Virus record (IMG/VR): IMGVR_UViG_3300023172_000243
Span: 1-21,000 of that record
DNA: 21,000 nt
Source of the DNA: a virus
Reading direction: 5' to 3' (one strand)
Positions 1 through 17,361 of this stretch are shown here, one piece after another. Made by a program: the position numbers and the translations under genes. The notes under the pieces are model-generated. The model did not search any database and had not been told where the DNA came from. It saw only the letters and a list, made by a program, of their open reading frames with translations. Every line of letters begins with the position of its first letter. Positions within the stretch are counted from its first letter, which is position 1.

Positions 1-399
1 ATGTTGCTCCGGCGCTGTGTATCCTAACTTGTATTCACGCAATTTGGTATGGAAAGGTTTGACCTCATTGATATAACTCTCTATCCAATCGTCTGTACCG
101 GTAGTGTATGTTTTCCTTTGATCGAATTGTCTTACCCTGTTTACGGCAGTGATGAAACTGGTTTTGAACATCCAGTCAACATAAGTCTGTTCCTCCAACA
201 CCTTTCTCAGTCCAGTGAAGAACAGTGTGTTGTATTCCACTGCAAGATCTCCTATGAACAGGTCATCCCTCAAGGCTGTGAGAACTTTACGTGTTTCAGT
301 GACCGGTTCTTGGTCAAAGGTGTTGTCATCGAAATTGTCTTCGCCGTCGTATCCCGTTGCATCTTGAGAATAATCGTAAAGTTTAGTGCTCAATCTCAC
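1..399 (-). CDS. Continuation of the giant virion structural protein in the -1 frame (partial, runs off window)
   Basis: On the minus strand a frame is open from base 414 (just after a TGA at 417-415) to the window edge. It overlaps the end of the giant structural gene, whose TGA stop is at 398-396. A GTG at 399-397 overlaps that stop (GTGA), and a TTG lies at 393-391, so re-initiation is possible, but I see no good ribosome-binding site. The more likely reading is that this is the same protein after a lost base: the upstream frame ends GWENVEQ and this frame begins ENGTVRLSTKLYDYSQDA, which joins without a break in style. Further on, FVDW/VDWMFKTSFI and NEVKPFHTKLREY-like text is, as I recall it, typical of the large tail/baseplate proteins of marine T4-like phages. 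About 133 codons are visible and no stop is reached. The function is structural by association. The choice between split gene, true frameshift and sequencing error is open. Confidence 0.6.
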   Translation of the reverse strand, partial: MRLSTKLYDYSQDATGYDGEDNFDDNTFDQEPVTETRKVLTALRDDLFIGDLAVEYNTLFFTGLRKVLEEQTYVDWMFKTSFITAVNRVRQFDQRKTYTTGTDDWIESYINEVKPFHTKLREYKLGYTAPEQH

Positions 400-417
400 T
401 GTGCCGTTCTCTGTTCA
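396..417 (-). other. Apparent frameshift junction at the end of the giant structural gene
   Basis: Bases 414-399 are the only stretch where both frames are open: the -1 frame has a TGA at 417-415 and the main frame stops at 398-396. Re-reading one base after the CAG codon at 413-411 would give VEQ then ENGTVRLS and a fused protein of at least about 3150 residues. Restoring one G (CAGAG to CAGGAG) would do the same. I see no canonical slippery heptamer in the allowed interval. The nearest A-rich run, TGGGAAAAC, lies before the -1 frame stop and so cannot serve. A one-base deletion or a sequence error is therefore more likely than programmed frameshifting. Confidence 0.55.
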
Positions 418-3400
418 ACGTTTTCCCAACCGCTCGCGGTCTTCATGAAAAGTTTCCATCCTCCCGTGTCTGCAGATGTGACTTTTACATGTTTTCCCAC
501 TTCAAGGTCGAGTTGATCTAGTTCGTATTCATATGTCACCTGTTTGTCAATCACGGTATTCTCATCGTGTACCATGTTGCTATCCACTTGGTACCAATCT
601 GTGTAACCCCAATAGTTGGAGGTGTTGTATGTTTGGATTCTTGTCCTGGACCATTCCATGCCATCCCATTGGTATATCGCCCAGTAGTTGTTGGCAGTCT
701 CGTCCGCTTTAACAAGATAATTTACAGTGCCTGACAGGTCGGCTGTGTTCAAATAGGTTAGTTCTGCGTATGTGTCCACCTGACCATCCCACAATCCACT
801 TGCGGAAGTTGGCTCCGCCTCCTTGGCATCAAGGTTAGAAAGGTTAATTCTGCCCACCAATTGGTTCTTCTTTAACACAGAGTTGGCGTAATCTATTATT
901 TCCTTCAATGCATCAAATCTGTCAACGTACCAACTTTGTCTTGGCCTCACGCTGTTACCGTATTTTTGATTCAATGGCAGTTCTGCGTCAGGCACAGAAT
1001 CGCCCGTGCTGTTCTTGCCGCAAAGTGAATCCCACCAACGACTCTCTATCTGGTGTCCTGGCCTGTAGTCTGGATCACCTTCACGCACCAGTTTCCATAC
1101 AGAATGTGCATCTCCATCGAAAGAAGTTTTCCTTATGTCTACGTTCAACACTATGTCTGAATTCACAAGGTCATACAGTCCCTTGATTATAAATTTGTTT
1201 TGATCGGTCACTGAGTAATACTTGATACCCGTGTTCTGCGGATTCCTAATGGCATTTGCCACATACGCCGTGGTGTTCTTTCTCTTGACCACAGCATCCT
1301 CAGGAATGGTTGCCCTATCACGCACCCAGAAGTAATAATAATCCACGAAAGTCGCCAGGCGTGAATTGTACTTCTGTATTTGTGTGTAATTTTCAGTGTT
1401 TGCTGTTCCCGAGATAGATCTTTCTTGACCACCTTGTGTTCCTGAAATCCTATTCCAATCCTCAGGCGGCACTGTTGACTCCGTCCACTCATAAACGTCT
1501 ATGCTGGAACCTGGGAAAGTGTCCCCCCAGTTGTTGGTTTTGAACTCCTGTGATCCTTGCTCGTACCATAGCCATTTGACTGTTGACAGATCCCACCATG
1601 TCTCACCTATGTGATTTTCCGCCCATGGGGTTTTTGTGTTGGCATTCGCGCCAGTGTTGTACACCGCTGGATCCCACGGAGATTTAACATTTATTTCTCT
1701 ATCGGCGATACCTAAGATCCTGCCTTTTACCGGATCGTAAAGATCATAGTAATCTCTGATCTGCTTGTTCTTGTTATTGAATTCAAAAACCTGACCAAGT
1801 TTTGAAACGTCTACCAATGGAGTTTCTGTCGCTATGTTCTTCCATGCGTATTCATCAAAAACCGTAAGATCATATGCATACACAGATCCATCGTCTGTGA
1901 GTCCTGTGTTCCCTTCGTCTTGTGGTGCACCAACGAAAACATTGTTATCTATGATACAAACACCCCTACCGAAATCGTCATTCGATGAAACATAGTTGGA
2001 AATCAACCTATCGTCCAAAACAAATTTTGTGTTGTATTTTGTAGCGGTGTAACTTGCCCCTGAACCGATATTCAAGTCAACGATATTGGTGTCCTGCAGG
2101 TCAAATGTTGTCTCACCAAGATCGAACTTCATCATCCTCGGACTCGCTGACTTGGATGCACCGATTACCAATCTAGTGCCTGATTGATTTATAGACACAG
2201 AACTTCCAAAGTTTGCGTTTGAAACATCTCCGGGTTCATTGATAGTTTGATCTAAAGTATAAGTGTTTGTAGATCCATCCCTGTTCCATTTGTAAATGTA
2301 TACCGCACCTGCGTCTGGCTGATCTGTTGCAGACACTCCCGGTGCACCTATTACCAATGTTGTGCCATCCTTGCTCATTGCAATTGAATCACCAAAAGAT
2401 ATGTTCAACGTTGAACCATCAGATACCACACCTGTCAATGTTTGCACATGTGAAAACGAATTTATTGTGCTGTCGTCATTTGATTGCGACGTTCTCACAA
2501 ATATTTCAACCTTGCCAGCATTGCCTGGCGCGAGTGAACTTACTGCTAATATGTCTCCATTGTCGTTGGCTTCTAGCCTGTGTCCGAACCTCTGTCCGGA
2601 CCCACCTGCAGGAGCATTTATTTGTAGATCTTTTGTCCATGTGTCGTACGTAGAACCGTCTGCCCCGATGCCCCAGGTGTACATGTAAACCACACCGGTA
2701 TCATTGAGGTGTCCTGGTGCTGAAACAAACATGTATTTCCTTGAAGTATCTCTCGCGGATGCTGTGCCCGGTTCTGATATCTTGTGAGCCCATCCGAAAT
2801 TTAAATTTTCATTTGCGGTCGACCCATCGGTCGGTGGAGTCACTGTGCTCAATATTCCATACTTGAAGGTGTTTGGTTCCCACACATAAGTCTTGACGAG
2901 GCCTGCGTTCTGCTGTCTCGTGCTTCCGTCTGTGCCTATTGTGTTTGTGTATGGTGCACCCGCAACAACAAAATTCTCATCTGTGCTGATCGACAGAGAC
3001 TCTCCCAATCTACTGGTGTTGTCATCATTGTCAGTCATTGTGGCTGTTGCTTGTACTGAATACTCTGTACCAGCGGTATGGCTTGACCTAAACAAGAAAT
3101 GTAACTCACCCTGCCCTTTGCCCGGTGCTGACACGACCGCTGTCCTGCCGTCATTTCTCGCCACAATCCTGTAACCAAAGTCTTGGTTTGCTGAAGAAGT
3201 GTCTGGCGACAATATTCTAAGTTCTGTGTATGGGTCTTGTTTCTCGTACACACGCCATAGTCCTGAACTGTCTGCGTCGGCGAAAACCTTGTCCCCTTCG
3301 AGTTTGACTTGCCTGTCGTCGTCTTTGTCTTTGTACTCCTTGTAATTGATCCTGTCATTGACGTTGTCCATAGAACCTAATCTCACAGAAATGAACTTGT

Positions 3401-6400
3401 AAATTATTCCATAACTGTCCGCGGTTGATCCGTCTTCCAGTGTGGGTATGAAGTCGGTGTTACCTTCGAAGTCGATTTCGATAGACTTGTGATCGATCAC
3501 TCTAGAAACTTGGAAAACCCTGTTGAGTGTTGTTGCCTCGCTGTTGGAAATGGCGAAGTAATCTGCTTCGCTGGTGTTCGTTCCTTCAGACAATCCATGT
3601 GACCCTGTGAATATTATTTGTAACCTAGTGCCATTTTCGAAAGGCGTCAGCGATTGTATCCTGATTCCAGCGTTTGTCAAACGTAACACGTCCCAGTCTT
3701 TGTTTTCTCGATTGGCCACCCAAAACAGATCATTCTGTGTAAGAGAATCAATGTCCAGGTTCAAAATATCAGAAATGTTGAACGCTGTGTGTTGTACTTG
3801 GTTAAGTTGCGGATACCCCGCGGTCTTGTAAACCTGCGCCGAGTCCCTGTCCACTCCTTCTTGGCTGTAGTCCAACAAAGAGAAAGTGGTGCTCGCATCG
3901 TACTCCACAGGTTTGCTGTACAGGTCATCCTTGACAACCGCCAACGACCTATTGTATGTTTTTGTTTCGGCGGTGTTATCCAGCAGTTCAATACTCTGAG
4001 GGTTCGCTACAACTTTTTCTTCATCCAATGTGATCTGTATGGCTTCTTTTGAATCAACATTGCCAAATACACCCGTTCTTATCATCCATTCAGGATATAG
4101 ATCCAGAGTGATGTCAGAATTCTCGTACTTGGCTTTGAGCAATTTGTCTATGGCCGCCTGCGTTCCTTTTTCTCTGATGTAGCCTTGATAGAACTTGTAC
4201 TGCGACACATCATTGACAAATAAATTTTCTAGATAGTCCCTAGATTGATAACCAGTCAATCTTTGTGCCAGTTGCTGTTGTGATTCATCGAAGTTGTTAC
4301 TTTCTAAATTGTAAAAGTCATTGAATTGTGCTATCTTGTAATCAAAGTTTGGTATCAACTGTGGTGCTGGTTTTTCCGATTTCACTGTCCAGTTGGAGTT
4401 GTCAAAAGTGTCAGACGAATTATGATTCACCTTACACACATAAAACTTGCCTTGGTATTCAACTGAATCGCCAATCCTGTAATCTGTGTTTGATGTCCAA
4501 TACGTTACTTCGGCCGCATCAAAAACGAAACCAGGTGCGTAGTAATCCCCATTCCAGCCAGCAGTTTTCCAACCAACCAATTTCAACCGCTGTTGTCGGA
4601 ACCCTGTGAAAGGTTCGTATATTATGTCAGAAAATACTGTCTTGTTGTCGAACAACAACAGGTGTTCCTTCTGCACCGTGTTCAGTGCGATGTTGTAAAG
4701 TCCAACGTCTTCTGATTTTATCGAAAGGTCAAAGGTTTTGCCCACACGTTTTGTCGAAACTTCCCGAATGTCAATTTTCCTGCCTCCTGAATCCAATATT
4801 GAATAATCACCAGCAAGGTTCCTTAATCTTCCAACTATGCTGTTGTCAGTGTCTAATTCAAAACCATCAGCGGCAGGAGATACCGTGATCGCTGATCCAG
4901 GAGCCCATTCCTGTGTTGTCCAGAATAGGAATTCCCTGACCGCGTTTGTCCAATTCAGTGTTTCTTTGATCTCCTTGGAATATCGATTGAATTTGAATCC
5001 CTGTGACTCTAACCAATTTCCATATCCCAGCAAGAAGTCTGCCACATCTTGCACGGTACTGAACACATAACCGTATGGTATTGTCTGTACAGTTTCTTGG
5101 TAGTTGCTGTACTGTGACACAGCAACTGATCCCGGGACCGATATCTGGTTTGCACTTTGACTTTTCGAAGGATAGTTGAAGTTGAAGTAAGGTTTCGTTG
5201 TTGAATAACCCAACACCTTGTAACCGCCTACGTAAGTCACTGTTGATCCATCCGTGGCCGTTGTCGTGTCGGTGTTTTTTTCAATCAATACACCCGAATA
5301 TGAAAAACTCTGTACAGGGTTGGAAGTCCTGAACAGTATTTTATAGTTCTCATCTGGTATGAATTTGGAACCCGACGTCGAACCCGGTGAAATAGAATCC
5401 GTCAACACTTTCAAGTTGTCCTTGTCTGTGAATCCACCCAGTTTGTAGGCCAACTGGACATCTAGATTCTTCATCTTGTCATAGTAGAATGCCACTGGAT
5501 CTAAATTTCTTGCCATCAAGTGGTTGACTACATAGACCTGGTATCCAGCAGTCTGATATCTTGTTGTCACACCTGTGTCATTGTTTGTAGATGTTTCCAA
5601 ATGGTACTTCGCAGTGGATAACTGAGTCCTTATACCTGTGTCTAAATAAATCTGATTGCCCGCTACATTGGTAGACAATCTCGATACATCAAAGAACACG
5701 CTGAAAAATTTAGCAGGTTTAGTGATGGCCAAGGTCTTTACAACAGTGAATGGGTATGAGCTAGACCTTCTCCAGGCTGTCTCCGCCGGTGCTTGGTCTC
5801 CAAACTTCCAGGGCTGTCTCCTGCCTGGCACGTTATAATCATCTATCAATCCTGCCGCCAATGGATTAAGAAGATTTCCTGACGCATCAACAGGGATATA
5901 GTTTGCAATGTTCGGTTTTCCATATCTTCCAGGTTCTGTTTTTATTGCGTTCCATAATATGTCATTGCCAGAAGTGTAAGGTGCAGGTCCGTATGTGTCG
6001 TCCCACGTGCTTGGTTTCTCAGAATGGCCAAGCATCTCCCATGGTCTGGTGTGTGGCGAATCCGTGTCATAGTAATACTTGTATATCGCTCTCCAGTATC
6101 CGGGAAGTTTCTTGCCATCAACTCTACTTGTTGAATTAGCATAGTTGTAAGTGAACGGAGATCCTTCTGTGAAAGTAGTGTTATTGATGTACTGTACGTT
6201 GTTACGACCCGCCCAAGAATAGAAATCTGTGCCCATCACGTCATTGATTTCCTTGAGAGTGTAGTCCGTTGAATAGAACGCACTAGGTGTGACTTCGGAA
6301 ATATCTAATAACGTTGAATCATAAGTTGTCTTGATGTTGTTGTATATCCTTCTCTCCAATTCCAGTATAAGTGCATCTCTTTCATCACCGTATCCTTTGA

Positions 6401-9400
6401 TTATGGATCCATCGTGTCTACGTATCACAGTCGTGCTTGTGATGTAAGTGTCGTCTGTGAATGATTCGGGTTTGAACTTTGGATACATGCCCAACTTTGT
6501 TGGGGTAGGTGGAATATAACTACCCGTTGTGTCAGCGTAATCCTTGATTACTATCTTGTCTCCCACAGTCAATGAAGCCGAAATGTTGACACTGTCATCC
6601 ACTGTGCTGAACGTGTAATCTGATCCTAGATTCAACAACACATCGTTTAGGTAAACGTACACTGCCCTGTTGCTTAACGTTGAAACACTGTGTTGTGAAT
6701 CTATTGCATAATCTTTTTGCGAGGTTCCTGCCACTGTGTAAGATCTAGTAGATACGTTCTGTCCCCAGCCCACCATGTCCTCGAAGAAGAACGGAAAGGT
6801 GCTGTTCTTGCCTTGATTTATTGACTCTATGATCTCATCCACCCTGTCTCTGGCCACACCTTCATATGCGGTGCCTATCGCCTTAGTCAAGAATGCGTTA
6901 TACCATTTCTCGTATTCTCTGTTTACAAAATCAATGGCATTGATAGCGTTGGCTTCTTGATCTATCAAATTGAACACGGCAGGCACCAATGGAGCCTGGT
7001 GTTGGTGGATGGTTCCACCCTGCAATCTAACATCTGGGTTGTCTCTTAAATTTGTGTTGCCTGGTATGGCTCCTGTCAGAACAGAGTTCTTATCAAAAAT
7101 GTCTGTGACATGTTTTAATATCTGTCCATAAGTGAATTCTCCAACCGTGTCGTTAAGACTGTTTGTTGCAAGATTTTCTGGAACCTCATAAATTCCTCTA
7201 TCGGCAACTTTGACTGTGTTACTATAGCCAGCCATCCTTATTTGATCATTTACTTTCAATTCTTTTACAAACTTGATATACTTGTTGCTTGTTCCGTTTT
7301 CTAACGTGTAATCTGTGGTCAAACTTTGTCTTATCCCGTTGACCGATACACTCAATTCAAGATCTGTTAACGATGCAGAATTGGCATAGAAATCTATAGG
7401 AAATAATCTTTTTTCTGTTTCGTCAACAATGTGCGTCCTGATGACACGCTGTTTTGATTCATTCTGCCTTTTGATCCAAGCACTCTTGCTATTGTGTGTT
7501 GTGCGAGACGTGGTGTAATGCAGGTGTCCCGTTGCCAGGCTCTTGGTCACTGTTTTATTATCCTGTTGATACGTGAAGGTCCCAGACGTGTGGTCAGATT
7601 CAAATACCATGTCTCCGACATTGTTTATGGTGTTGTATTTTACTTTTAGACCCAACACAGTGTCCGTGGTCGCTGTGTCGCTGATTCCATATTTAAGCAC
7701 CGTGGCTCCCACAAAGGATGAGTTAGGATATGCTGTGACATCATCGAAACTGACATGGTTATTGTCGTACATGTTGAACAAAGGTTGTTGATTCAACTTG
7801 ATCTTTTGTTGTGTAGTTTTCCATGTTGTGGTAGCGGCATCGTAGTAATAAGACTTTCCTTTGTTACTGACTCCGTTCTTCACAAACACAGTGTCCTTGT
7901 CTAGAGCCACACCGTTGGTGTCTTCATTCAATGTCAATGACAACACCGTAGAATCACCTGCGTCAACAAAATTTGCCACCCATATCTTACCTCTTACCAG
8001 TTCGTCTGTGTCCGCGGAAAATATGATCCTCATGCCGTCTGTGATTGCCGTCCCGTCAGCGAAATATCCAAACTGCCCTGACACATCACTGAATGCGTCT
8101 CTGGTCGTTGTGTCAAACAGATCAACTGGATTTTTAGCAACTGTTCCTGAATTATAAAGACTTAATCCCGAGTCAAATTCTATAATAGGCCTTTTGGCTC
8201 TGTCTGCCTCGTCAAGAACCGTGGTGGTACCGTTGACTGTAGACGCAGTCTCGATGACTGATCTATGGAACCATCTATTGTACCTTGACCATGCGTTGTG
8301 GTCTAACGAATCTCTCTTGATGGTGATGTAATCCTTGTCGACCGGCACCCCATTGTCAGCATACGATTCCGGCGTTGCCAACACACTTGTGTCAGTGAGG
8401 GTGATTGAATCCCCAACTCCTTCCACGTAATATTCTTTGTTCTGATACTCTGATGCAACCTTGCTATTTTTGAATTTTATTTTCATTCCGTTAGTGAAAT
8501 CTAAAGTTCGCAACTTGTAGTTTTTAGCACCAATGATGTCATCCGCAGGGTTGATGTACGACGATGAATCTACTGTCCTTATGTGAAGGATTCCATACAT
8601 GCCATCATGGTTGCCGCACTGATAATACAAGGTGTCAGGTGCCCCAGATGTGGGCACAACAAAAGTAACAGTGCCTTGCTCCGCACCGTTGTTCGTTACA
8701 CCTGAGGTGTAAAGCACTGATGTGGAACCGTCAGCACCAATGCCATCCTTGCTCGGTTCCGTCATTATGTAGAACGGATGTCCTTGCGCTTCCATGGTGA
8801 ACTTGTAGGTGTTACCCCTCCAAAGTTCTAATTCAGGGTTTCTCTCGTTTTCCCTGTGTGAGAAAGTATAGGCCCTGCCCGAGGAACCATCATCCGCCAA
8901 TGCTTCTACTGTGTATTCTGCAACCGCTCCTGTGCCTACGGAATCAATCTCTATGGCAGAAGGACCTGATGGTAACCAATAGTATTCCCTGTAGTTGACC
9001 AGTTTGTCGAAATCAACCGCGGGGTTCCAACTGTAAACTGTTTCCTTGTTCAGCCTGTCATGATTGTTTACATGACCGCCAAGGTATTTGATCTGATTGA
9101 TGTAGTCATCATAGGTGCCTGTGAACTTGACCTGGTCTTCCGGATTTACTGACGTGGTGTCTCTGTCCGTGTAGGTTACTGCTGGTTCCAACTGGTACGC
9201 GAATCTGTCCCTACTTGTTGCAGAAATGTATCTGTCATTGACATCTCTTGTGTATGCGTCCTGTCTGCCAACAAAACCATCAAGTCTCTCCAGTGAGCCT
9301 TTTTGAACTAAAGGGTCTAATGTACTGGCCAGGAACCTCTGGTTGGTATCTGTACGATAAAATGCAGGTAGGTGCTGTACAGTCCTCCTGTACTCGTTGG

Positions 9401-9455
9401 TGCCTTGTTTCACAACTTCGCTATTACTGAATGCGTTGATCGGATTGTCGGCCAT
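396..9455 (-). CDS. Giant virion structural protein (baseplate/tail associated, gp7 position), apparently frameshifted at its C-terminus
   Basis: This 3019-residue product follows gp6 with a TAATG overlap and an AGGA site five bases before the ATG. It is expected to be a large baseplate-periphery or tail protein of the virion. The N-terminus (LPAFYRTDTNQRFLASTLDP, then DYINQIKYLGG, LNKETVYSWNP, YYWLPSGP) and the RPWEMLGHSEKP region near residue 1136 match, from memory, the large structural proteins next to gene 6 in marine T4-like phages. Visible modules are a cupredoxin-like domain at about 180-294 (H226, C280, H283, M286), a CBM5/12-like motif at about 1653-1680, and seven FG-GAP repeats starting at 2093, 2150, 2220, 2290, 2354, 2416 and 2495. 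DGST occurs eight times. There is no signal peptide or membrane segment. In T4 this slot holds gene 7 (1032 residues); equivalence is inferred from position only. The frame probably continues into bases 1-411 after a one-base shift. Confidence 0.85.
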   Translation of the reverse strand: MADNPINAFSNSEVVKQGTNEYRRTVQHLPAFYRTDTNQRFLASTLDPLVQKGSLERLDGFVGRQDAYTRDVNDRYISATSRDRFAYQLEPAVTYTDRDTTSVNPEDQVKFTGTYDDYINQIKYLGGHVNNHDRLNKETVYSWNPAVDFDKLVNYREYYWLPSGPSAIEIDSVGTGAVAEYTVEALADDGSSGRAYTFSHRENERNPELELWRGNTYKFTMEAQGHPFYIMTEPSKDGIGADGSTSVLYTSGVTNNGAEQGTVTFVVPTSGAPDTLYYQCGNHDGMYGILHIRTVDSSSYINPADDIIGAKNYKLRTLDFTNGMKIKFKNSKVASEYQNKEYYVEGVGDSITLTDTSVLATPESYADNGVPVDKDYITIKRDSLDHNAWSRYNRWFHRSVIETASTVNGTTTVLDEADRAKRPIIEFDSGLSLYNSGTVAKNPVDLFDTTTRDAFSDVSGQFGYFADGTAITDGMRIIFSADTDELVRGKIWVANFVDAGDSTVLSLTLNEDTNGVALDKDTVFVKNGVSNKGKSYYYDAATTTWKTTQQKIKLNQQPLFNMYDNNHVSFDDVTAYPNSSFVGATVLKYGISDTATTDTVLGLKVKYNTINNVGDMVFESDHTSGTFTYQQDNKTVTKSLATGHLHYTTSRTTHNSKSAWIKRQNESKQRVIRTHIVDETEKRLFPIDFYANSASLTDLELSVSVNGIRQSLTTDYTLENGTSNKYIKFVKELKVNDQIRMAGYSNTVKVADRGIYEVPENLATNSLNDTVGEFTYGQILKHVTDIFDKNSVLTGAIPGNTNLRDNPDVRLQGGTIHQHQAPLVPAVFNLIDQEANAINAIDFVNREYEKWYNAFLTKAIGTAYEGVARDRVDEIIESINQGKNSTFPFFFEDMVGWGQNVSTRSYTVAGTSQKDYAIDSQHSVSTLSNRAVYVYLNDVLLNLGSDYTFSTVDDSVNISASLTVGDKIVIKDYADTTGSYIPPTPTKLGMYPKFKPESFTDDTYITSTTVIRRHDGSIIKGYGDERDALILELERRIYNNIKTTYDSTLLDISEVTPSAFYSTDYTLKEINDVMGTDFYSWAGRNNVQYINNTTFTEGSPFTYNYANSTSRVDGKKLPGYWRAIYKYYYDTDSPHTRPWEMLGHSEKPSTWDDTYGPAPYTSGNDILWNAIKTEPGRYGKPNIANYIPVDASGNLLNPLAAGLIDDYNVPGRRQPWKFGDQAPAETAWRRSSSYPFTVVKTLAITKPAKFFSVFFDVSRLSTNVAGNQIYLDTGIRTQLSTAKYHLETSTNNDTGVTTRYQTAGYQVYVVNHLMARNLDPVAFYYDKMKNLDVQLAYKLGGFTDKDNLKVLTDSISPGSTSGSKFIPDENYKILFRTSNPVQSFSYSGVLIEKNTDTTTATDGSTVTYVGGYKVLGYSTTKPYFNFNYPSKSQSANQISVPGSVAVSQYSNYQETVQTIPYGYVFSTVQDVADFLLGYGNWLESQGFKFNRYSKEIKETLNWTNAVREFLFWTTQEWAPGSAITVSPAADGFELDTDNSIVGRLRNLAGDYSILDSGGRKIDIREVSTKRVGKTFDLSIKSEDVGLYNIALNTVQKEHLLLFDNKTVFSDIIYEPFTGFRQQRLKLVGWKTAGWNGDYYAPGFVFDAAEVTYWTSNTDYRIGDSVEYQGKFYVCKVNHNSSDTFDNSNWTVKSEKPAPQLIPNFDYKIAQFNDFYNLESNNFDESQQQLAQRLTGYQSRDYLENLFVNDVSQYKFYQGYIREKGTQAAIDKLLKAKYENSDITLDLYPEWMIRTGVFGNVDSKEAIQITLDEEKVVANPQSIELLDNTAETKTYNRSLAVVKDDLYSKPVEYDASTTFSLLDYSQEGVDRDSAQVYKTAGYPQLNQVQHTAFNISDILNLDIDSLTQNDLFWVANRENKDWDVLRLTNAGIRIQSLTPFENGTRLQIIFTGSHGLSEGTNTSEADYFAISNSEATTLNRVFQVSRVIDHKSIEIDFEGNTDFIPTLEDGSTADSYGIIYKFISVRLGSMDNVNDRINYKEYKDKDDDRQVKLEGDKVFADADSSGLWRVYEKQDPYTELRILSPDTSSANQDFGYRIVARNDGRTAVVSAPGKGQGELHFLFRSSHTAGTEYSVQATATMTDNDDNTSRLGESLSISTDENFVVAGAPYTNTIGTDGSTRQQNAGLVKTYVWEPNTFKYGILSTVTPPTDGSTANENLNFGWAHKISEPGTASARDTSRKYMFVSAPGHLNDTGVVYMYTWGIGADGSTYDTWTKDLQINAPAGGSGQRFGHRLEANDNGDILAVSSLAPGNAGKVEIFVRTSQSNDDSTINSFSHVQTLTGVVSDGSTLNISFGDSIAMSKDGTTLVIGAPGVSATDQPDAGAVYIYKWNRDGSTNTYTLDQTINEPGDVSNANFGSSVSINQSGTRLVIGASKSASPRMMKFDLGETTFDLQDTNIVDLNIGSGASYTATKYNTKFVLDDRLISNYVSSNDDFGRGVCIIDNNVFVGAPQDEGNTGLTDDGSVYAYDLTVFDEYAWKNIATETPLVDVSKLGQVFEFNNKNKQIRDYYDLYDPVKGRILGIADREINVKSPWDPAVYNTGANANTKTPWAENHIGETWWDLSTVKWLWYEQGSQEFKTNNWGDTFPGSSIDVYEWTESTVPPEDWNRISGTQGGQERSISGTANTENYTQIQKYNSRLATFVDYYYFWVRDRATIPEDAVVKRKNTTAYVANAIRNPQNTGIKYYSVTDQNKFIIKGLYDLVNSDIVLNVDIRKTSFDGDAHSVWKLVREGDPDYRPGHQIESRWWDSLCGKNSTGDSVPDAELPLNQKYGNSVRPRQSWYVDRFDALKEIIDYANSVLKKNQLVGRINLSNLDAKEAEPTSASGLWDGQVDTYAELTYLNTADLSGTVNYLVKADETANNYWAIYQWDGMEWSRTRIQTYNTSNYWGYTDWYQVDSNMVHDENTVIDKQVTYEYELDQLDLEVGKHVKVTSADTGGWKLFMKTASGWENVEQRTAQ
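1868..3179 (-). repeat. Seven FG-GAP repeats, predicted beta-propeller in the giant structural protein
   Basis: Repeat units begin FG or LG at residues 2093, 2150, 2220, 2290, 2354, 2416 and 2495, spaced 57 to 79 residues. Most then run through a DG or NDNG turn and a hydrophobic strand ending in a GAP/SAP/GAS turn, for example SAPGKGQG, AGAPYTN, SAPGHLND, IGAPGVS, IGASKSA and VGAPQDEG. Many close with an aromatic strand such as VYMYTW, VYIYKW or VYAYDL. This is the FG-GAP pattern of integrin alpha-chain seven-bladed propellers. The likely role is a binding or rigid structural module on the virion. Confidence 0.75.
4417..4499 (-). other. CBM5/12-like carbohydrate-binding motif in the giant structural protein
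   Basis: Starting at W1653 the protein reads WTSNTDYRIGDSVEYQGKFY, then VCKVNH and, shortly after, NWTV. The order W, Y, GD-x-V, Y-x-G-x-x-Y, H and closing W follows the short three-stranded chitin/cellulose-binding modules of the CBM5/12 (ChtBD3) type found in bacterial chitinases and many phage tail proteins. Sugar binding is inferred from the motif alone. The segment leads into a charged helical stretch, so it may also act as a hinge. Confidence 0.55.
8573..8918 (-). other. Cupredoxin-like domain inside the giant structural protein
   Basis: Residues about 180-294 form a beta-rich segment. It has WRGNTYKF, then GHPFYI (H226), a GVTNNGAEQGTVTFVVP strand pair, and YYQCGNHDGMYG with C280, H283 and M286. 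An early His followed by Cys-x2-His-x2-Met close to the end is the ligand layout of a type-1 copper site; plastocyanin has His, then Cys-x2-His-x4-Met. Copper binding is an inference. A copper-free cupredoxin fold used as a structural or adhesive module is also possible. Confidence 0.65.
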
Positions 9456-12400
9456 TAGTATCCTGCCCCACTACTGCCGGTGCTTGAACCGGAACCTGTT
9501 GTAGTAGAGCCTGATACCGCTGATCCTGTTGTGGTGTTGGTCGTGGCAGTTGATGTTGATGTGACCACAGTGCCAGAGGCGGCCAATTGGTTGGCTCCCA
9601 GTGCTGTGATTATAGACACATCATCAACGGTGGCCCCACTGATGAAAATCTCGTCCGCCGCTGAGTTAATCTGGAACAGAGACCCAAAACCCTGTCCTGA
9701 TTCATTTGGCACTATCACAACTGTGAGCAGGTCGGGTGCCAATTCGTTGTGAACGTATGCGGCTAATTCTGTAAAATAAAAAGTGTCTCCGAAATCCCAA
9801 TTATCAAGAGCAAAGAATTCGTTTATTGCGGCGATGACTCTTGTCTTTATGACAGCGTCTGTGACATTGGTTTTACTGTTCTTGACCACTTTGAAAGTGG
9901 CCTGTAAATTTTCATCAGCACCATTTCCAAATAAAATTTTGTATTTGACTGGATGATACACTATCTGATCCGATAATGATTTCAGTGGATTCAACACGCC
10001 GGAATAGTTGATTCTCAATTGATCGCTAGTAGACACGATAGGTTTTGTTCCGCCGTCCTGTAACCATATTCTAAACAGGTTATCATATGTCCTCTCTAGT
10101 AGGTACACGTCCACAATGTTAGACACACTAGGATCGATCCTTGTTTCTTGTCCGGCGTGATGCTTGTATTGGAAATCAATGGAACTTCTGCCTCTCCTTG
10201 CGTAATAATCTGTTGACGTTGACAGAGTGTTTGTTGTTGAATCATATGTTTTTACAACATCTTCTGATTCATCATAAAAATAAAATAATTGTCCATTTGT
10301 ATAGGTCGAAGTGTTAAGGTTTATATCCGATTCATTTTGTGTCACTACAAAATTAGATGCCGCGTATGGTTTGAATCTTTCTATACTATCGTATGATATG
10401 TACTTTTGGAAAAACACAAATTTAGTCGAGATTGCTGTATCTGGCTCAACGAATATATCAAAAAGTTCTGGATTGTCCACCACACCATCGTCGTCGCTGT
10501 CAAGGAATCCTACTTTGACTTTCCTGTTGTCTTGGAATCCATCATCTTCTGTGACAGTTTCCGTGACTTGCCATGTCAATGGATAGCCAATGCTGTTGCC
10601 AGAGGAAAGCACTGAATTTGTCCTTAGAATTTTCACTGTGTCTTTGACAACTTTTCCTGTCTTGTAATCGTAAATCCTTTCTTCTGTGTCATAATGGAAT
10701 TTGTTTTGGGCCTCTGACTCAAAAATGTAATCCAATTTCCTGTAGGTCACAGTGTATGTGTTTCCGTCATTTGTAAATTTGAACCACCAACTAGCATCGA
10801 GATTAGCACCAGTGGTATCACCGGTGTTTGTCAGACTAAACACAGAACTTGTGCTTAGATTGGTTGTGGTGATCACACGCCACTCTTGATTTTCTACATC
10901 ATATCTCAATCCGAAATTTTCGTATTTTTCGGTCCTATCTATTATATCTGTCTCAAGGCTTGACGAAAACGAAGTAGTGAATGTAGGTATCACTGCATCG
11001 AGCACCGCCCCGTTTGGTACAATGTCATTCAGTGTGATGGGACCTAGGCCACTTGAAAGGTTTCCCTGTCCACTGTTTGATCCATCCCCGACCACGTCGG
11101 TGATCTTTGCCCACGCCCTGTCCTCGGCGTTCTCTGTTCCTGCCGTTACCAGTGCGCCGTTCTTGAACTCTCTTGTGTCAGGAGATGTGAACTTAATCAA
11201 TGCTCCTTCCTTGGCGTATTTCAAATTAGAAGTTGCACTGTCACCTATCGCCAGCGCACCGCCTGAAGTGAAATAGCCGGTGTTGGTGTTCGTGCTCGTT
11301 GTCGATGAATTCCATGTTGCTGTCAGAGAAGACAAACTCTTGGTGTCATACTTGAGATAGTAGAAATGTCTGGAATAGGCCTGCTTCAATTTGGCCTCGA
11401 CTGAGAGATCTATCACAGACTTGATCTCACTCCTGTTGTTGAAAGTGAACGTAAAAGTTGGATTGGTCTCTTCTCTGTAGAGTATTCCGTCCTCCGCAAA
11501 CACAGACACGTTTGAATATGCCCCTGTTGGGTCTAGTATCTCCTTTGCCCTTGATATGCCTGATGCTGATCTGTTTACGGATCTAACCTTGACAATCTCT
11601 TGTGATGCAGACAGTGGAACCACTTGGTAGTCCTCCGCTGTGATCATCCTGTTCTGAGAATAGTAAACTTGTGCCGCTTTCTCCTTGATAGAATCATTGG
11701 ATTCGGTGGCCGCTGAGTTATAGATACTTGCTTTCAAGCTCATAGTCACAGTCAATGTTTGTTGTGATCCATTGGCATCAATGTATGGCACTGCGACCTG
11801 AATATTCTGCATGTCAGATGGCTGAATCGAATACTTGGCGTTATCACTGATCCTGTAGTATGTTCTGAAAGATCCTAAAGGAAGGTTAGAAAAATTTCCA
11901 TCACCGAACACTAAATCTATCGCATCATTATTTTTTGTTACTACGTTGTAAATGTTTCTAATACTTTTCGCCAAAGAATTGTAGATAGCATTATTGCCTG
12001 TAAGTGATGGTACCTTCGTCCAACTCTCGGATATTTGTCCAAACTGGTCTAACTTGTACAACCAAACGTCCGTGTCATTTATATTGTTTGTATCAATGCT
12101 TTTTACATAATTTGTGATAGCAGAATCAACAGAGAAATCCAAGTTCTGCATTGTTCCCTGTTTGAAAAGGAAAAAGAAACCTGTGTTGTTTGAACTATCA
12201 CCCGAACCGTCTGTCCTGTATGAGTAAGTAAAACCTGTTCCAGGCACAGGACTTGATTCATACACGCTGTCCGAGTCATTGATAGTGCTTGGCACAATTT
12301 CAAACGACCTCGATATTCCTCCAATGGTTTTTGCAAATTGGAATATTGGTAGATCTAACTGATTTGAACTTAATGTGTAAATTTCGGTTTTTATTCCACC

Positions 12401-12937
12401 GACCGAATCAGATTCTCTTGGATTGCCAAATAGTTGTCCGGTCTGATTTGCGGCATTTAGAACTGCTGTAAATTGTTCCCTGTAATTAGAATTTGCACTG
12501 TCGTTCCAGATGATTGTGCTGTTTGCTAAATTTGTTCCTGTGCTGTCGTTAACATCTTGTGTTGTAGATATGGCATCAATTTTTAAAAGACCTGTCGCGG
12601 GTTTATTCCTTTTCGCGTTGTAGTTTATCAACCGCGCCAATCTCAGGATTGAATTCCTTCTCTCTGCTGTTTCTAAGAAGTTTTCCCTTGCGTTTAGGTC
12701 TACCCTGAAAGAAAGTGCCTGTGCGATGTAGGCGATAAGATCTATTAAGGCAACGTATTCTGAACTCTCTACGAAATCATTGAAATCATCTGGATAATTT
12801 TCTTGTAGGTACGCCACCATGGTCCTACGTAGCGTCTCGAAATCATAACTTTTGAAATCTGCCTGCTGGAAAGCCTGGTAGATCTTCCTCCAATCCTCGG
12901 CTACTAATAATCTGTTCTGTCTATCTGTTGTGGCCAT
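9455..12937 (-). CDS. 6: gp6, baseplate wedge protein (extended marine form)
   Basis: This 1160-residue protein is the gp6 wedge component, which in T4 dimerises to form the continuous ring linking the baseplate wedges. The N-terminal block (YDFETLRRTMVAYLQENYP, then SSEYVALIDLIAYIAQALSF and NFLETAERRNSILRLARLI, residues about 31-110) is characteristic. A baseplate-J-like segment follows (YYSQNRMITAEDYQVVPLSA). The C-terminal third (KYKILFGNGADENLQATFKV to VVIVPNESGQGFGSLFQI) matches the gp6 ring domain. T4 gp6 is 660 residues, so about 500 are extra, mostly in the middle. That part includes a perfect EF-hand-type loop, DSDDDGVVDNPE, at 813-824. The last 42 or so residues are a Ser/Thr/Gly tail ending at Y1160. 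The gene lies 42 bases after gp25 with a TATAAATA late promoter in the gap, and I see no Shine-Dalgarno before the ATG. It overlaps the giant gene by one base. Confidence 0.92.
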   Translation of the reverse strand: MATTDRQNRLLVAEDWRKIYQAFQQADFKSYDFETLRRTMVAYLQENYPDDFNDFVESSEYVALIDLIAYIAQALSFRVDLNARENFLETAERRNSILRLARLINYNAKRNKPATGLLKIDAISTTQDVNDSTGTNLANSTIIWNDSANSNYREQFTAVLNAANQTGQLFGNPRESDSVGGIKTEIYTLSSNQLDLPIFQFAKTIGGISRSFEIVPSTINDSDSVYESSPVPGTGFTYSYRTDGSGDSSNNTGFFFLFKQGTMQNLDFSVDSAITNYVKSIDTNNINDTDVWLYKLDQFGQISESWTKVPSLTGNNAIYNSLAKSIRNIYNVVTKNNDAIDLVFGDGNFSNLPLGSFRTYYRISDNAKYSIQPSDMQNIQVAVPYIDANGSQQTLTVTMSLKASIYNSAATESNDSIKEKAAQVYYSQNRMITAEDYQVVPLSASQEIVKVRSVNRSASGISRAKEILDPTGAYSNVSVFAEDGILYREETNPTFTFTFNNRSEIKSVIDLSVEAKLKQAYSRHFYYLKYDTKSLSSLTATWNSSTTSTNTNTGYFTSGGALAIGDSATSNLKYAKEGALIKFTSPDTREFKNGALVTAGTENAEDRAWAKITDVVGDGSNSGQGNLSSGLGPITLNDIVPNGAVLDAVIPTFTTSFSSSLETDIIDRTEKYENFGLRYDVENQEWRVITTTNLSTSSVFSLTNTGDTTGANLDASWWFKFTNDGNTYTVTYRKLDYIFESEAQNKFHYDTEERIYDYKTGKVVKDTVKILRTNSVLSSGNSIGYPLTWQVTETVTEDDGFQDNRKVKVGFLDSDDDGVVDNPELFDIFVEPDTAISTKFVFFQKYISYDSIERFKPYAASNFVVTQNESDINLNTSTYTNGQLFYFYDESEDVVKTYDSTTNTLSTSTDYYARRGRSSIDFQYKHHAGQETRIDPSVSNIVDVYLLERTYDNLFRIWLQDGGTKPIVSTSDQLRINYSGVLNPLKSLSDQIVYHPVKYKILFGNGADENLQATFKVVKNSKTNVTDAVIKTRVIAAINEFFALDNWDFGDTFYFTELAAYVHNELAPDLLTVVIVPNESGQGFGSLFQINSAADEIFISGATVDDVSIITALGANQLAASGTVVTSTSTATTNTTTGSAVSGSTTTGSGSSTGSSGAGY

Positions 12938-12979: not shown

Positions 12980-13384
12980 TTAAGATAGGCGTAACAGAGA
13001 ATTTTCATCGAAGTTGAATCGTAATTTCTCTGTGATATTGAGTGGCACGTATGTTATTGTGGCCTGTACGGCTATGCCTTTGTCTGCTTCGGTAACTAAT
13101 ATTTCTTCCGTCGATATCCTAGGATCTGAGTTTAAATTTGCAGTGATGTCATCTACTATTGCATCTTTTAACTGTTCTGTGAATGGTTCAAATATTGCAT
13201 CATAGATTATTGTTCCAAATTCTGGATTCTCAACACGTTCGCCCTTCCTGATTGACAATCTGTTTATAAGATCCTGCTTGGCTACTTCGAAGTCATACAA
13301 CTTGAAATTTTGCCTGTCAGCACGTGAACTGAAACCTTTGAAAGTTGGTTGCCTGTTAGATAAATCTCGATTGTTCTCAGCCAT
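12980..13384 (-). CDS. 25: gp25, baseplate wedge protein (gpW/gp25 family)
   Basis: This 134-residue protein is a gp25-family wedge component, matching T4 gp25 (132 residues) in length. gp25 sits in the inner baseplate wedge and provides the first handshake for polymerisation of the contractile sheath. The sequence shows the family layout: KLYDFEVAKQDLINRLSIRK, then NPEFGTIIYDAIFEPF, a helix (TEQLKDAIVDDITANLNSDP), a DPRI turn at the strand entry, and two closing strands (IAVQATITYVPLN, TEKLRFNF). It lies 14 bases after gp5 and 42 before gp6. No clear Shine-Dalgarno is seen, and a TAAATA core lies just before the start. The order gp5, gp25, gp6 fits a wedge/hub assembly operon. Confidence 0.93.
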   Translation of the reverse strand: MAENNRDLSNRQPTFKGFSSRADRQNFKLYDFEVAKQDLINRLSIRKGERVENPEFGTIIYDAIFEPFTEQLKDAIVDDITANLNSDPRISTEEILVTEADKGIAVQATITYVPLNITEKLRFNFDENSLLRLS

Positions 13385-13398: not shown

Positions 13399-14889
13399 CT
13401 ATGCAATATCGTCCTTTTCTCTGCCACCCACGGGTCGTTCATATGGTTCGTGTGTAATAAAAGCATCCGAATGTTTTTTAGTTTTATAATCTCTTACTGT
13501 GGTTTCAGTTTGTTTTGTTTGTACAACCCCTCGATTGTTGATTGGCTGTTCTGACTTGATGTCAGTCACTTTGACCGGTTGTAGATCAATTTTTTTGTGT
13601 GATGGTTTCAACCATCCAGGACCCCAATTCGACTTAGCCCTTGTTGAGTTAAAATGAACTTGTGAACCTGCTAGGTCAATCCTACCGGACGCACCATGTA
13701 ACTGTGTTCCGTTTGTGAAGGACGTTATACCGTCCCTAGCAAAATTACGAACACTTCCTTTTTGTGATGCATTCAATATTCCAGAATCTCCCATGGCATA
13801 GATGTATTTCTGTGAATTGAGAACGAGATCTTTCTCTGATGTAAACTTTATATTTTCCTTTGCATGGAAATTGATATTCTTGTCAGCATGTAGATTGAAA
13901 TCTCCTTCTGTCCTCATGCTTATTCCCCTGTTAGAATAAAGACTGATTCTACCCGACTTGTCCATTTCAACCCAAGCGTTTCCTGAGCCGTTTGCAATAT
14001 ACACTGTGCCCTCTGTGTCATGTAACAGAATCTGATGTCCTGTAGATGTCCTTATCCTTGTTAATTGATTATGGCCGTTGACATCTCCGTCGTCCATAAC
14101 GAAACTGTGTCCTAGATCTCTGTCAGGCCTTACGGTGGTTCCTGAGATTCCTACGTTCTGCTTACGCGAATCAGATCTGATCGGGCCTGGTGTGTTTATT
14201 CCAAACACCTGACTTGGTGTCTCCCTGTTGGCGGCACTGCTTGTAGTCCCCCTTACATCATCTTGTATCAATCCTTCGGAAAGCAATTGGTCTGCAAGGA
14301 TGTCATTTAGTGGAAGGTCCCATGTGTCTGAATTTGATAGTGTATTTCCTGGCTTATTGAAGTTCCTGTTGAGGTCTCCCGACGGCAAGAAATCCGTGCC
14401 ATAATTGGTTTGTCCTGCCCTAGCAAGATCTCTGGCATTAACAGATCTCTTGGTGCTGGCCAGTCCGGGTATCTGCTGATTTATTTTTGGTTTTTGTATA
14501 CAACCGATCCAATATGCACTATTCTCGTTGTTCTCTCCCTTTGCAAAGATAACCAACACCTCTGTGTCTATGTCAGGCGGTACTGCCCAAAATCCATAAC
14601 TGGTCTGATTCTCCTTGTAAGAATTTGGATCTGTAGTGCTCACCGTCGATAACGGTTTGGACCCATAGAATGGCGAAAGGTAATGACACCATATTACTTG
14701 GGAAGGTGCCGGCGTGTTGGTATTTGAAAGTGCAGGAATGTTTACTCCAAGCCTGCCCATCTTGAGTGGATCCACAACGGCCTTTACCACACCGACGTAT
14801 GGGCCTGGATCATTGTCTACGTATTTCTCGTTGTAACTTTTCTGATTGTCTTGAGTATCTGTGAACCCTCTTGCATCACGGTATGACAT
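13399..14889 (-). CDS. 5: gp5, baseplate central spike protein without lysozyme domain
   Basis: This 496-residue protein is the spike under the tail tube that punctures the cell envelope. Residues about 28-135 are the OB-fold: GPYVGVVKAVVDPLKMGRLG, then YGFWAVPPDIDTEVLVIFAK and AYWIGCIQKP. T4 gp5 (575 residues) carries a lysozyme domain next. Here residues about 136-255 are a linker rich in Asn, Ser and Arg, with no phage-lysozyme-like segment. From about 258 the VgrG/gp5-type beta-helix begins (HSFVMDDGD, HNQLTRIRTSTGHQILLHD) and continues as short strands to about 415 (SLYSNRGISMRTEGDFNLHA). The C-terminal 80 residues are basic and polar. It lies 8 bases after the hub-like gene and 14 before gp25. 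The AGGA before the start is unusually far from the ATG (about 13 bases). Confidence 0.9.
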   Translation of the reverse strand: MSYRDARGFTDTQDNQKSYNEKYVDNDPGPYVGVVKAVVDPLKMGRLGVNIPALSNTNTPAPSQVIWCHYLSPFYGSKPLSTVSTTDPNSYKENQTSYGFWAVPPDIDTEVLVIFAKGENNENSAYWIGCIQKPKINQQIPGLASTKRSVNARDLARAGQTNYGTDFLPSGDLNRNFNKPGNTLSNSDTWDLPLNDILADQLLSEGLIQDDVRGTTSSAANRETPSQVFGINTPGPIRSDSRKQNVGISGTTVRPDRDLGHSFVMDDGDVNGHNQLTRIRTSTGHQILLHDTEGTVYIANGSGNAWVEMDKSGRISLYSNRGISMRTEGDFNLHADKNINFHAKENIKFTSEKDLVLNSQKYIYAMGDSGILNASQKGSVRNFARDGITSFTNGTQLHGASGRIDLAGSQVHFNSTRAKSNWGPGWLKPSHKKIDLQPVKVTDIKSEQPINNRGVVQTKQTETTVRDYKTKKHSDAFITHEPYERPVGGREKDDIA

Positions 14890-17061: not shown

Positions 17062-17361
17062 TTATACCCCTAGATCACTTTTGACATTGGCCGGTTTAGG
17101 CAACTGTATAGTCACTCCTGGTCTGAAATCGTATATCGGATCCTCTATCTGATCTGGGTTACGCTGGGCGAACACCCACCACAATCTTGGCGAGCCATAT
17201 AAGTCATAGGCAAGAAGGTCGGGCCTGTATGCGTATGTCCTCTCTATTGTGTATGTTTGGTCGTCGTCCTCCGCCGTAATAGGCCTCGGAATAAAAGTTT
17301 CTAGATTGATTGCATTCTGAGGTGTACTGAAGTACGGAGAAGTGGATGAGTATTTGGCCAT
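17062..17361 (-). CDS. 53: gp53, baseplate wedge protein
   Basis: This 99-residue protein is similar in layout to gp53 of marine T4-like phages. The N-terminus (SPYFSTPQNAINLETFIPRP) is extended. Residues about 36-88 form a LysM-like unit: YTIERTYAYRPDLLAYDLYG, then SPRLWWVFAQRNPDQIEDPI and the closing PGVTIQLP. In T4, gp53 (196 residues) joins the wedges to the hub and carries a LysM-like fold, so this is a compact version, about half that length. The start overlaps the gp48 stop by one base (TAATG), with AGGA eight bases upstream, and the stop is one base before the next ATG. Tight coupling with gp48 and the hub-like gene fits stoichiometric baseplate synthesis. The gene name rests on the LysM-like core and gene order. 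Confidence 0.75.
   Translation of the reverse strand: MAKYSSTSPYFSTPQNAINLETFIPRPITAEDDDQTYTIERTYAYRPDLLAYDLYGSPRLWWVFAQRNPDQIEDPIYDFRPGVTIQLPKPANVKSDLGV

Follow-up and report, generated by a model that had tools for sequence, protein, structure and literature searches.

A giant protein encoded beside T4-like baseplate genes carries seven FG-GAP repeats, which are predicted to form a closed seven-bladed beta-propeller of the integrin alpha-head fold, and the repeat region occupies the place of the turn of a beta-hairpin that is empty in several homologues. We propose, with a probability of roughly one half, that this hairpin-mounted propeller of the wedge protein is a display platform that binds another virion protein. 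The DNA analyzed, hereafter the window, is the whole stretch of 21,000 nucleotides from positions 1 to 21,000 of the IMG/VR virus record IMGVR_UViG_3300023172_000243.

The minus strand of the window harbors a T4-like baseplate cluster that encodes, in order, a gp53-like wedge protein (17062..17361; profile matches), a phrog_11190 protein, a gp5-like hub/spike protein with an OB domain (13399..14889; profile matches), a gp25-like wedge protein (12980..13384; Pfam GPW_gp25), a gp6-like wedge protein (9455..12937; phrog_10646 and phrog_219) and the 3019-a.a. ORF of the giant protein (396..9455). The plus strand encodes homologues of gp55 and gp47, together with a gp46 homologue labeled from a reading of its translation. 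The gene for the giant protein directly follows gp6, which is the position of the gp7 gene in T4, and its product is a member of the giant virion protein family phrog_10938 (1051.9 bits, with the profile matched over the protein length). After a one-base frame break, the same protein continues in a second frame (1..399, minus strand), and this piece carries on the phrog_10938 profile; the IMG/VR relatives have a single ORF of ~4200 a.a., as compared with 3019 a.a. plus the second frame in the window. The break, near position 415, is a one-base gap relative to the loci L001 and L002. It is either an assembly error or a real mutation, and it lies downstream of the propeller.

Sequence profiles of two conserved regions of the giant protein matched no wedge protein among the solved structures, and PDB sequence searches with the whole protein, a flank profile and a core profile returned nothing useful. 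CBB_236, the identity of which as a homologue of the giant protein was checked, is represented by 21 unique peptides in a mass-spectrometric analysis of virions (PMC5259590), and thus the giant protein is very probably in the virus particle. The synteny with gp53, gp5, gp25 and gp6, together with the presence of CBB_236 in virions, supports the assignment of the host protein to the baseplate, in line with an earlier sequence-only reading of this DNA, which had described a propeller built into a baseplate/tail protein. The source of the window is a T4-like, jumbo-related myovirus with the host protein at the gp7 position of the wedge.

Elsewhere in the giant protein, residues ~196−298 (8562-8870, minus strand) form a cupredoxin/plastocyanin-like stretch with a His..Cys..His..Met pattern (HPFYI...YYQCGNHDGMYG) and weak matches to At5g54830-like (E = 1.9e-4, below the cut-off) and AcoP (E = 0.45); tail proteins, among them the cyanophage gp9 ‘tail fibre connector’, have similar stretches. 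Residues 1653−1682 (4410-4499, minus strand) match a CBM_5_12 module of the chitin-binding type (E = 1.5e-6), and a second CBM_5_12, just below the cut-off (E = 1.6e-5), is found in L001 in the part beyond the window.

The seven FG-GAP repeats span residues 2093−2529 of the minus-strand ORF. FG (or LG) motifs, each followed by a GAP/SAP-type strand, are located at residues 2093, 2150, 2220, 2290, 2354, 2416 and 2495, exactly where the sequence-only reading had placed the starts of its seven units. All seven motifs are kept in the 31 aligned sequences, from relatives 67−82% identical to the window. The profile search that had been suggested as a check also returned the repeats: Pfam FG-GAP_2 matched the whole ORF with an E value of 9.4e-16 and all 31 aligned relatives (best E = 7.5e-24). 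In a held-out test, each blade was scored by a profile built from the other six and compared with 2000 shuffles of that blade; the scores ranged from 10.6 to 43.4 bits, and for every blade 0/2000 shuffles reached the score.

Using the 31-sequence alignment, the AlphaFold2 strands and the held-out blade test, we delimited, all on the minus strand, blade 1 (residues 2093−2139, 3039..3179), blade 2 (2150−2205, 2841..3008), blade 3 (2220−2280, 2616..2798), blade 4 (2290−2341, 2433..2588), blade 5 (2354−2406, 2238..2396), blade 6 (2416−2484, 2004..2210), which has a 33-residue loop with a conserved FDxGxTTFD, and strands 1−3 of blade 7 (2495−2530, 1866..1973). An N-terminal strand (residues 2076−2082, 3210..3230) is read as strand 4 of blade 7, closing the ring, based on the strand order and on the alignment of integrin residue 1 at model residue 29-30. 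The complete predicted propeller, as defined by Pfam, AlphaFold2 and VIA-align to integrin alpha, comprises residues ~2073−2530 (1866..3239). The span of 1868-3179 proposed earlier therefore covers all seven FG motifs, but the full domain is slightly longer (~1866-3239), because the closing strand precedes the first FG.

A first AlphaFold2 run, on residues 1830−2720 with 39 close relatives, gave good confidence for the propeller and poor confidence for the flanks (mean pLDDT 67.2). When residues 2045−2547 were modeled in a second run with 53 diverse sequences that are 23−75% identical to the window, the prediction was a closed seven-bladed propeller with a pLDDT of 87.5 and a pTM of 0.89. Its 28 blade strands follow one another in order and make up seven four-stranded blades, if the N-terminal strand is taken to close blade 7. 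A Foldseek search with this model ranked integrin alpha chains first (E = 1.8e-14). When the 1000 best Foldseek chains were re-aligned with VIA-align, the best 50 of the 1000 were all integrin alpha chains (Z 34−38, rmsd 2.9−3.8 Å, 362−387 residues aligned). Taken together, the models support a closed seven-bladed FG-GAP propeller with the integrin alpha-head fold, consistent with the complete, integrin-like propeller anticipated from the sequence, for which six to eight blades had been allowed.

The propeller takes the place of the turn of a beta-hairpin, the strands of which were located by homologue alignment and the model: strand 1, WRVYEK, at residues 2067−2072 (3240..3257, minus strand) and strand 2, YAWKNI, at residues 2536−2541 (1833..1850, minus strand). 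The occupied hairpin reads LWRVYEKQDPY[propeller]EYAWKNIATETP; the empty hairpin reads KWAVYKKG-VYSWAQYRTQVDS in L187, an uncultured lineage, and RWAVYYFNSGKWNLDYKEQD in SCTP-2. In the alignment of L187, with a slot of 232 a.a., to L175, the propeller region is absent between KWAVYKK and SWAQYRTQ, the two hairpin strands. Such an empty site, seen in several homologues, bears out the view that the propeller is inserted between two tail-type regions.

A pair of conserved anchors delimits the slot in 164 homologues, counted as loci, some of which come from one contig. The propeller is present in 147 of them, and the 17 propeller-free proteins are those of RaK2, XaC1, Vibrio 2.275.O, Cassandra (PA5oct group), SCTP-2, Atu_ph07, Phosso and ten uncultured loci. 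A quick, unrooted tree built from the flanks only has a fully supported branch that sets 13 propeller-free rows apart on one side, and it nests L187 within the propeller clade (SH-aLRT 96−99). Two changes suffice to account for the presence and absence of the propeller on the tree, as compared with a mean of 13 after shuffling. The deep change may be either a gain or a loss, as the tree is unrooted, and L187 apparently underwent a secondary loss. In the 353-kb record of L187, only the hairpin piece was matched and nothing resembling a propeller was found elsewhere, which argues against its relocation within this record. We found no cultured phage carrying the propeller in the wedge protein, and tblastn of cultured phages with the propeller hit only another gene of Sinorhizobium phage Phosso. 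In the Phosso genome (L086/L087, PV764938.1, W05), FG-GAP-like repeats are numerous in very large ORFs of 3182 and 3702 a.a. (48-69 kb and 92-94 kb), which are distinct from the wedge protein gene.

The slot ranges from 216 to over 1500 a.a. in length (216−217 a.a. in XaC1 and RaK2), and several propeller-free homologues have other beta-rich material in it, including GxGYxxxP repeats in Atu_ph07, Cassandra and L172 and a stretch in SCTP-2 that by eye looks like LamG. Tandem GxGYxxxPxV repeats, which match other phage structural families (phrog_460, phrog_701 and phrog_438), fill the slot in L085, L082, L172 and L186, and extend over ~1500 a.a. in Atu_ph07. Four loci (L224, L232, L244 and L246) have extra inserts within or between the propeller blades, with slots of 854 to 1600 a.a., which suggests nested insertions.

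The predicted orientation of the propeller was derived from the strand order rather than from coordinates. Its two ends exit at the turn expected between strands 3 and 4 of blade 7, a position on the bottom face in the integrin convention, and this is the side on which they would meet the hairpin. The propeller would thus sit with its bottom on the host protein, and its top face, bearing the long loops of blades 2, 5, 6 and 7, should point away from the wedge protein. In the reading we prefer, the propeller would bind another virion protein, such as a fibre or a peripheral baseplate part, and so decorate the baseplate rim. Over 62 relatives, the conservation of the propeller (0.642) is similar to that of the flanks (0.663 and 0.638) and of the whole protein (0.665). 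Conservation equal to that of the flanks favors a steady partner, most simply a virion protein, over a receptor in an arms race, without deciding between them, and we infer that the partner is a virion protein rather than a cell surface. The existence of L187 without the propeller means that wedge assembly in general can dispense with it.

Alternatively, the propeller might be a receptor-binding or cell-surface adhesin module that attaches through its exposed top face to a surface protein or glycan of the host. We regard this as less likely than the display platform, though a real possibility. Integrin heads bind their ligands by the top face of the propeller, and the top-face loops here are long and vary in length; the loss of the propeller in one lineage points in the same direction. 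However, T4-like phages normally recognize their hosts through the tail fibres, whereas the propeller resides in a wedge-position protein, and it evolves no faster than its flanks; the conservation along the protein has no sign of a fast-evolving adhesin. Equal rates are compatible with a conserved receptor, too. The top-face loops have a somewhat lower conservation (0.61, versus 0.68 for the bottom loops), as might be expected with variable ligands, but without statistical significance (p = 0.16). Moreover, phi11 Gp45 (PMC4901313) sets a precedent, being a host-recognition protein of the baseplate that contains a propeller.

It is unlikely that the propeller is a structural spacer or brace, packed between neighboring wedges of an enlarged baseplate with no other binding. 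The different beta-rich inserts that fill the slot in other lineages (the GxGYxxxP repeats and the LamG-looking stretch) and the wide range of slot lengths would fit such a role, but the propeller preserves its length and loops well within the clade, and RaK2, XaC1 and L187 manage without a large module, indicating that a brace is not generally needed. Finally, although the fold is a predicted one and the propeller profile found no significant match among the solved structures (the best, integrin alpha-4, had an E value of 0.79), a chance run of FG and GAP dipeptides in a beta-rich phage protein with no real domain is vanishingly improbable, being ruled out by the held-out blade test in every blade and opposed by the Pfam E value of 9e-16, the pTM and the Z of 38.

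The propeller is a precise, testable module, with clear ends and a defined hairpin; it is present in a large uncultured clade, absent from the cultured relatives checked and naturally lost in one nested lineage. Binding to fibres would explain the attachment of extra parts to giant baseplates; if it binds receptors, baseplate wedges would join the tail fibres as host-range determinants. A broader and rather doubtful extension is that, in this clade of uncultured T4-like phages, the wedge-hairpin propeller is a swappable ligand-binding head outside the tail fibres, and that modules for host recognition or fibre anchoring generally dock at this hairpin socket in jumbo phages. The prediction places a near-exact integrin-head fold in phage tails.

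The predicted phage propeller has the same seven FG-GAP blades as the integrin alpha propellers (alphaM/beta2, 9t3y; alphaV/beta3, 1jv2) and shares the start of the chain, integrin residue 1 aligning at the start of the phage propeller, with a sequence identity of 14−19%. The integrin calcium loops (DxDxDG, between strands 1 and 2 of several blades) are absent from the phage propeller, with none in the 53 sequences. The integrin propeller is the N-terminus of a receptor, whereas that of the phage is an insert in the hairpin of a structural protein encoded beside baseplate genes, lacking the legs, membrane anchor and beta-subunit partner, and the likeness implies no common function. In BFVD, FG-GAP proteins of giant viruses and uncultured Caudovirales, some of them named FG-GAP, share the propeller fold with E values down to 1e-26, but in other contexts (collagen-repeat, LamG and YHYH proteins), with no baseplate wedge named among the matches listed. 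A literature search for FG-GAP repeats in phage baseplates, tail fibres and virion structural proteins, in a collection with few subscription papers, returned one prasinovirus paper and no phage paper.

Among virion proteins, the Rak2-like CBB_236 and RaK2 ORF070w (phrog_10938) are homologous giant proteins in the same place after gp6, without the propeller, and CBB virions were reported to contain a Kelch-propeller protein (PMC5259590). The propeller of phi11 Gp45, a baseplate-attached trimeric RBP, is thought to bind a host glycan or surface protein, with a proposed GlcNAc pocket (PMC4901313); likened by description only, the two have a baseplate-attached propeller in common, with five blades in Gp45 versus seven here. 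The C-terminal domain of phiKZ gp131 (PDB 4GBF) is a seven-bladed propeller at the baseplate rim (PMC4901313), likewise compared by description only, and differs in its C-terminal placement, in the protein that carries it and in the tail system; it was not among the VIA-align best 50 of 1000, which is no evidence against kinship. Thus, seven-bladed baseplate propellers are already known from phiKZ gp131, and the novelty here lies in the FG-GAP type within a giant wedge-position protein, in the precise hairpin that receives it, and in how its presence and loss are distributed.
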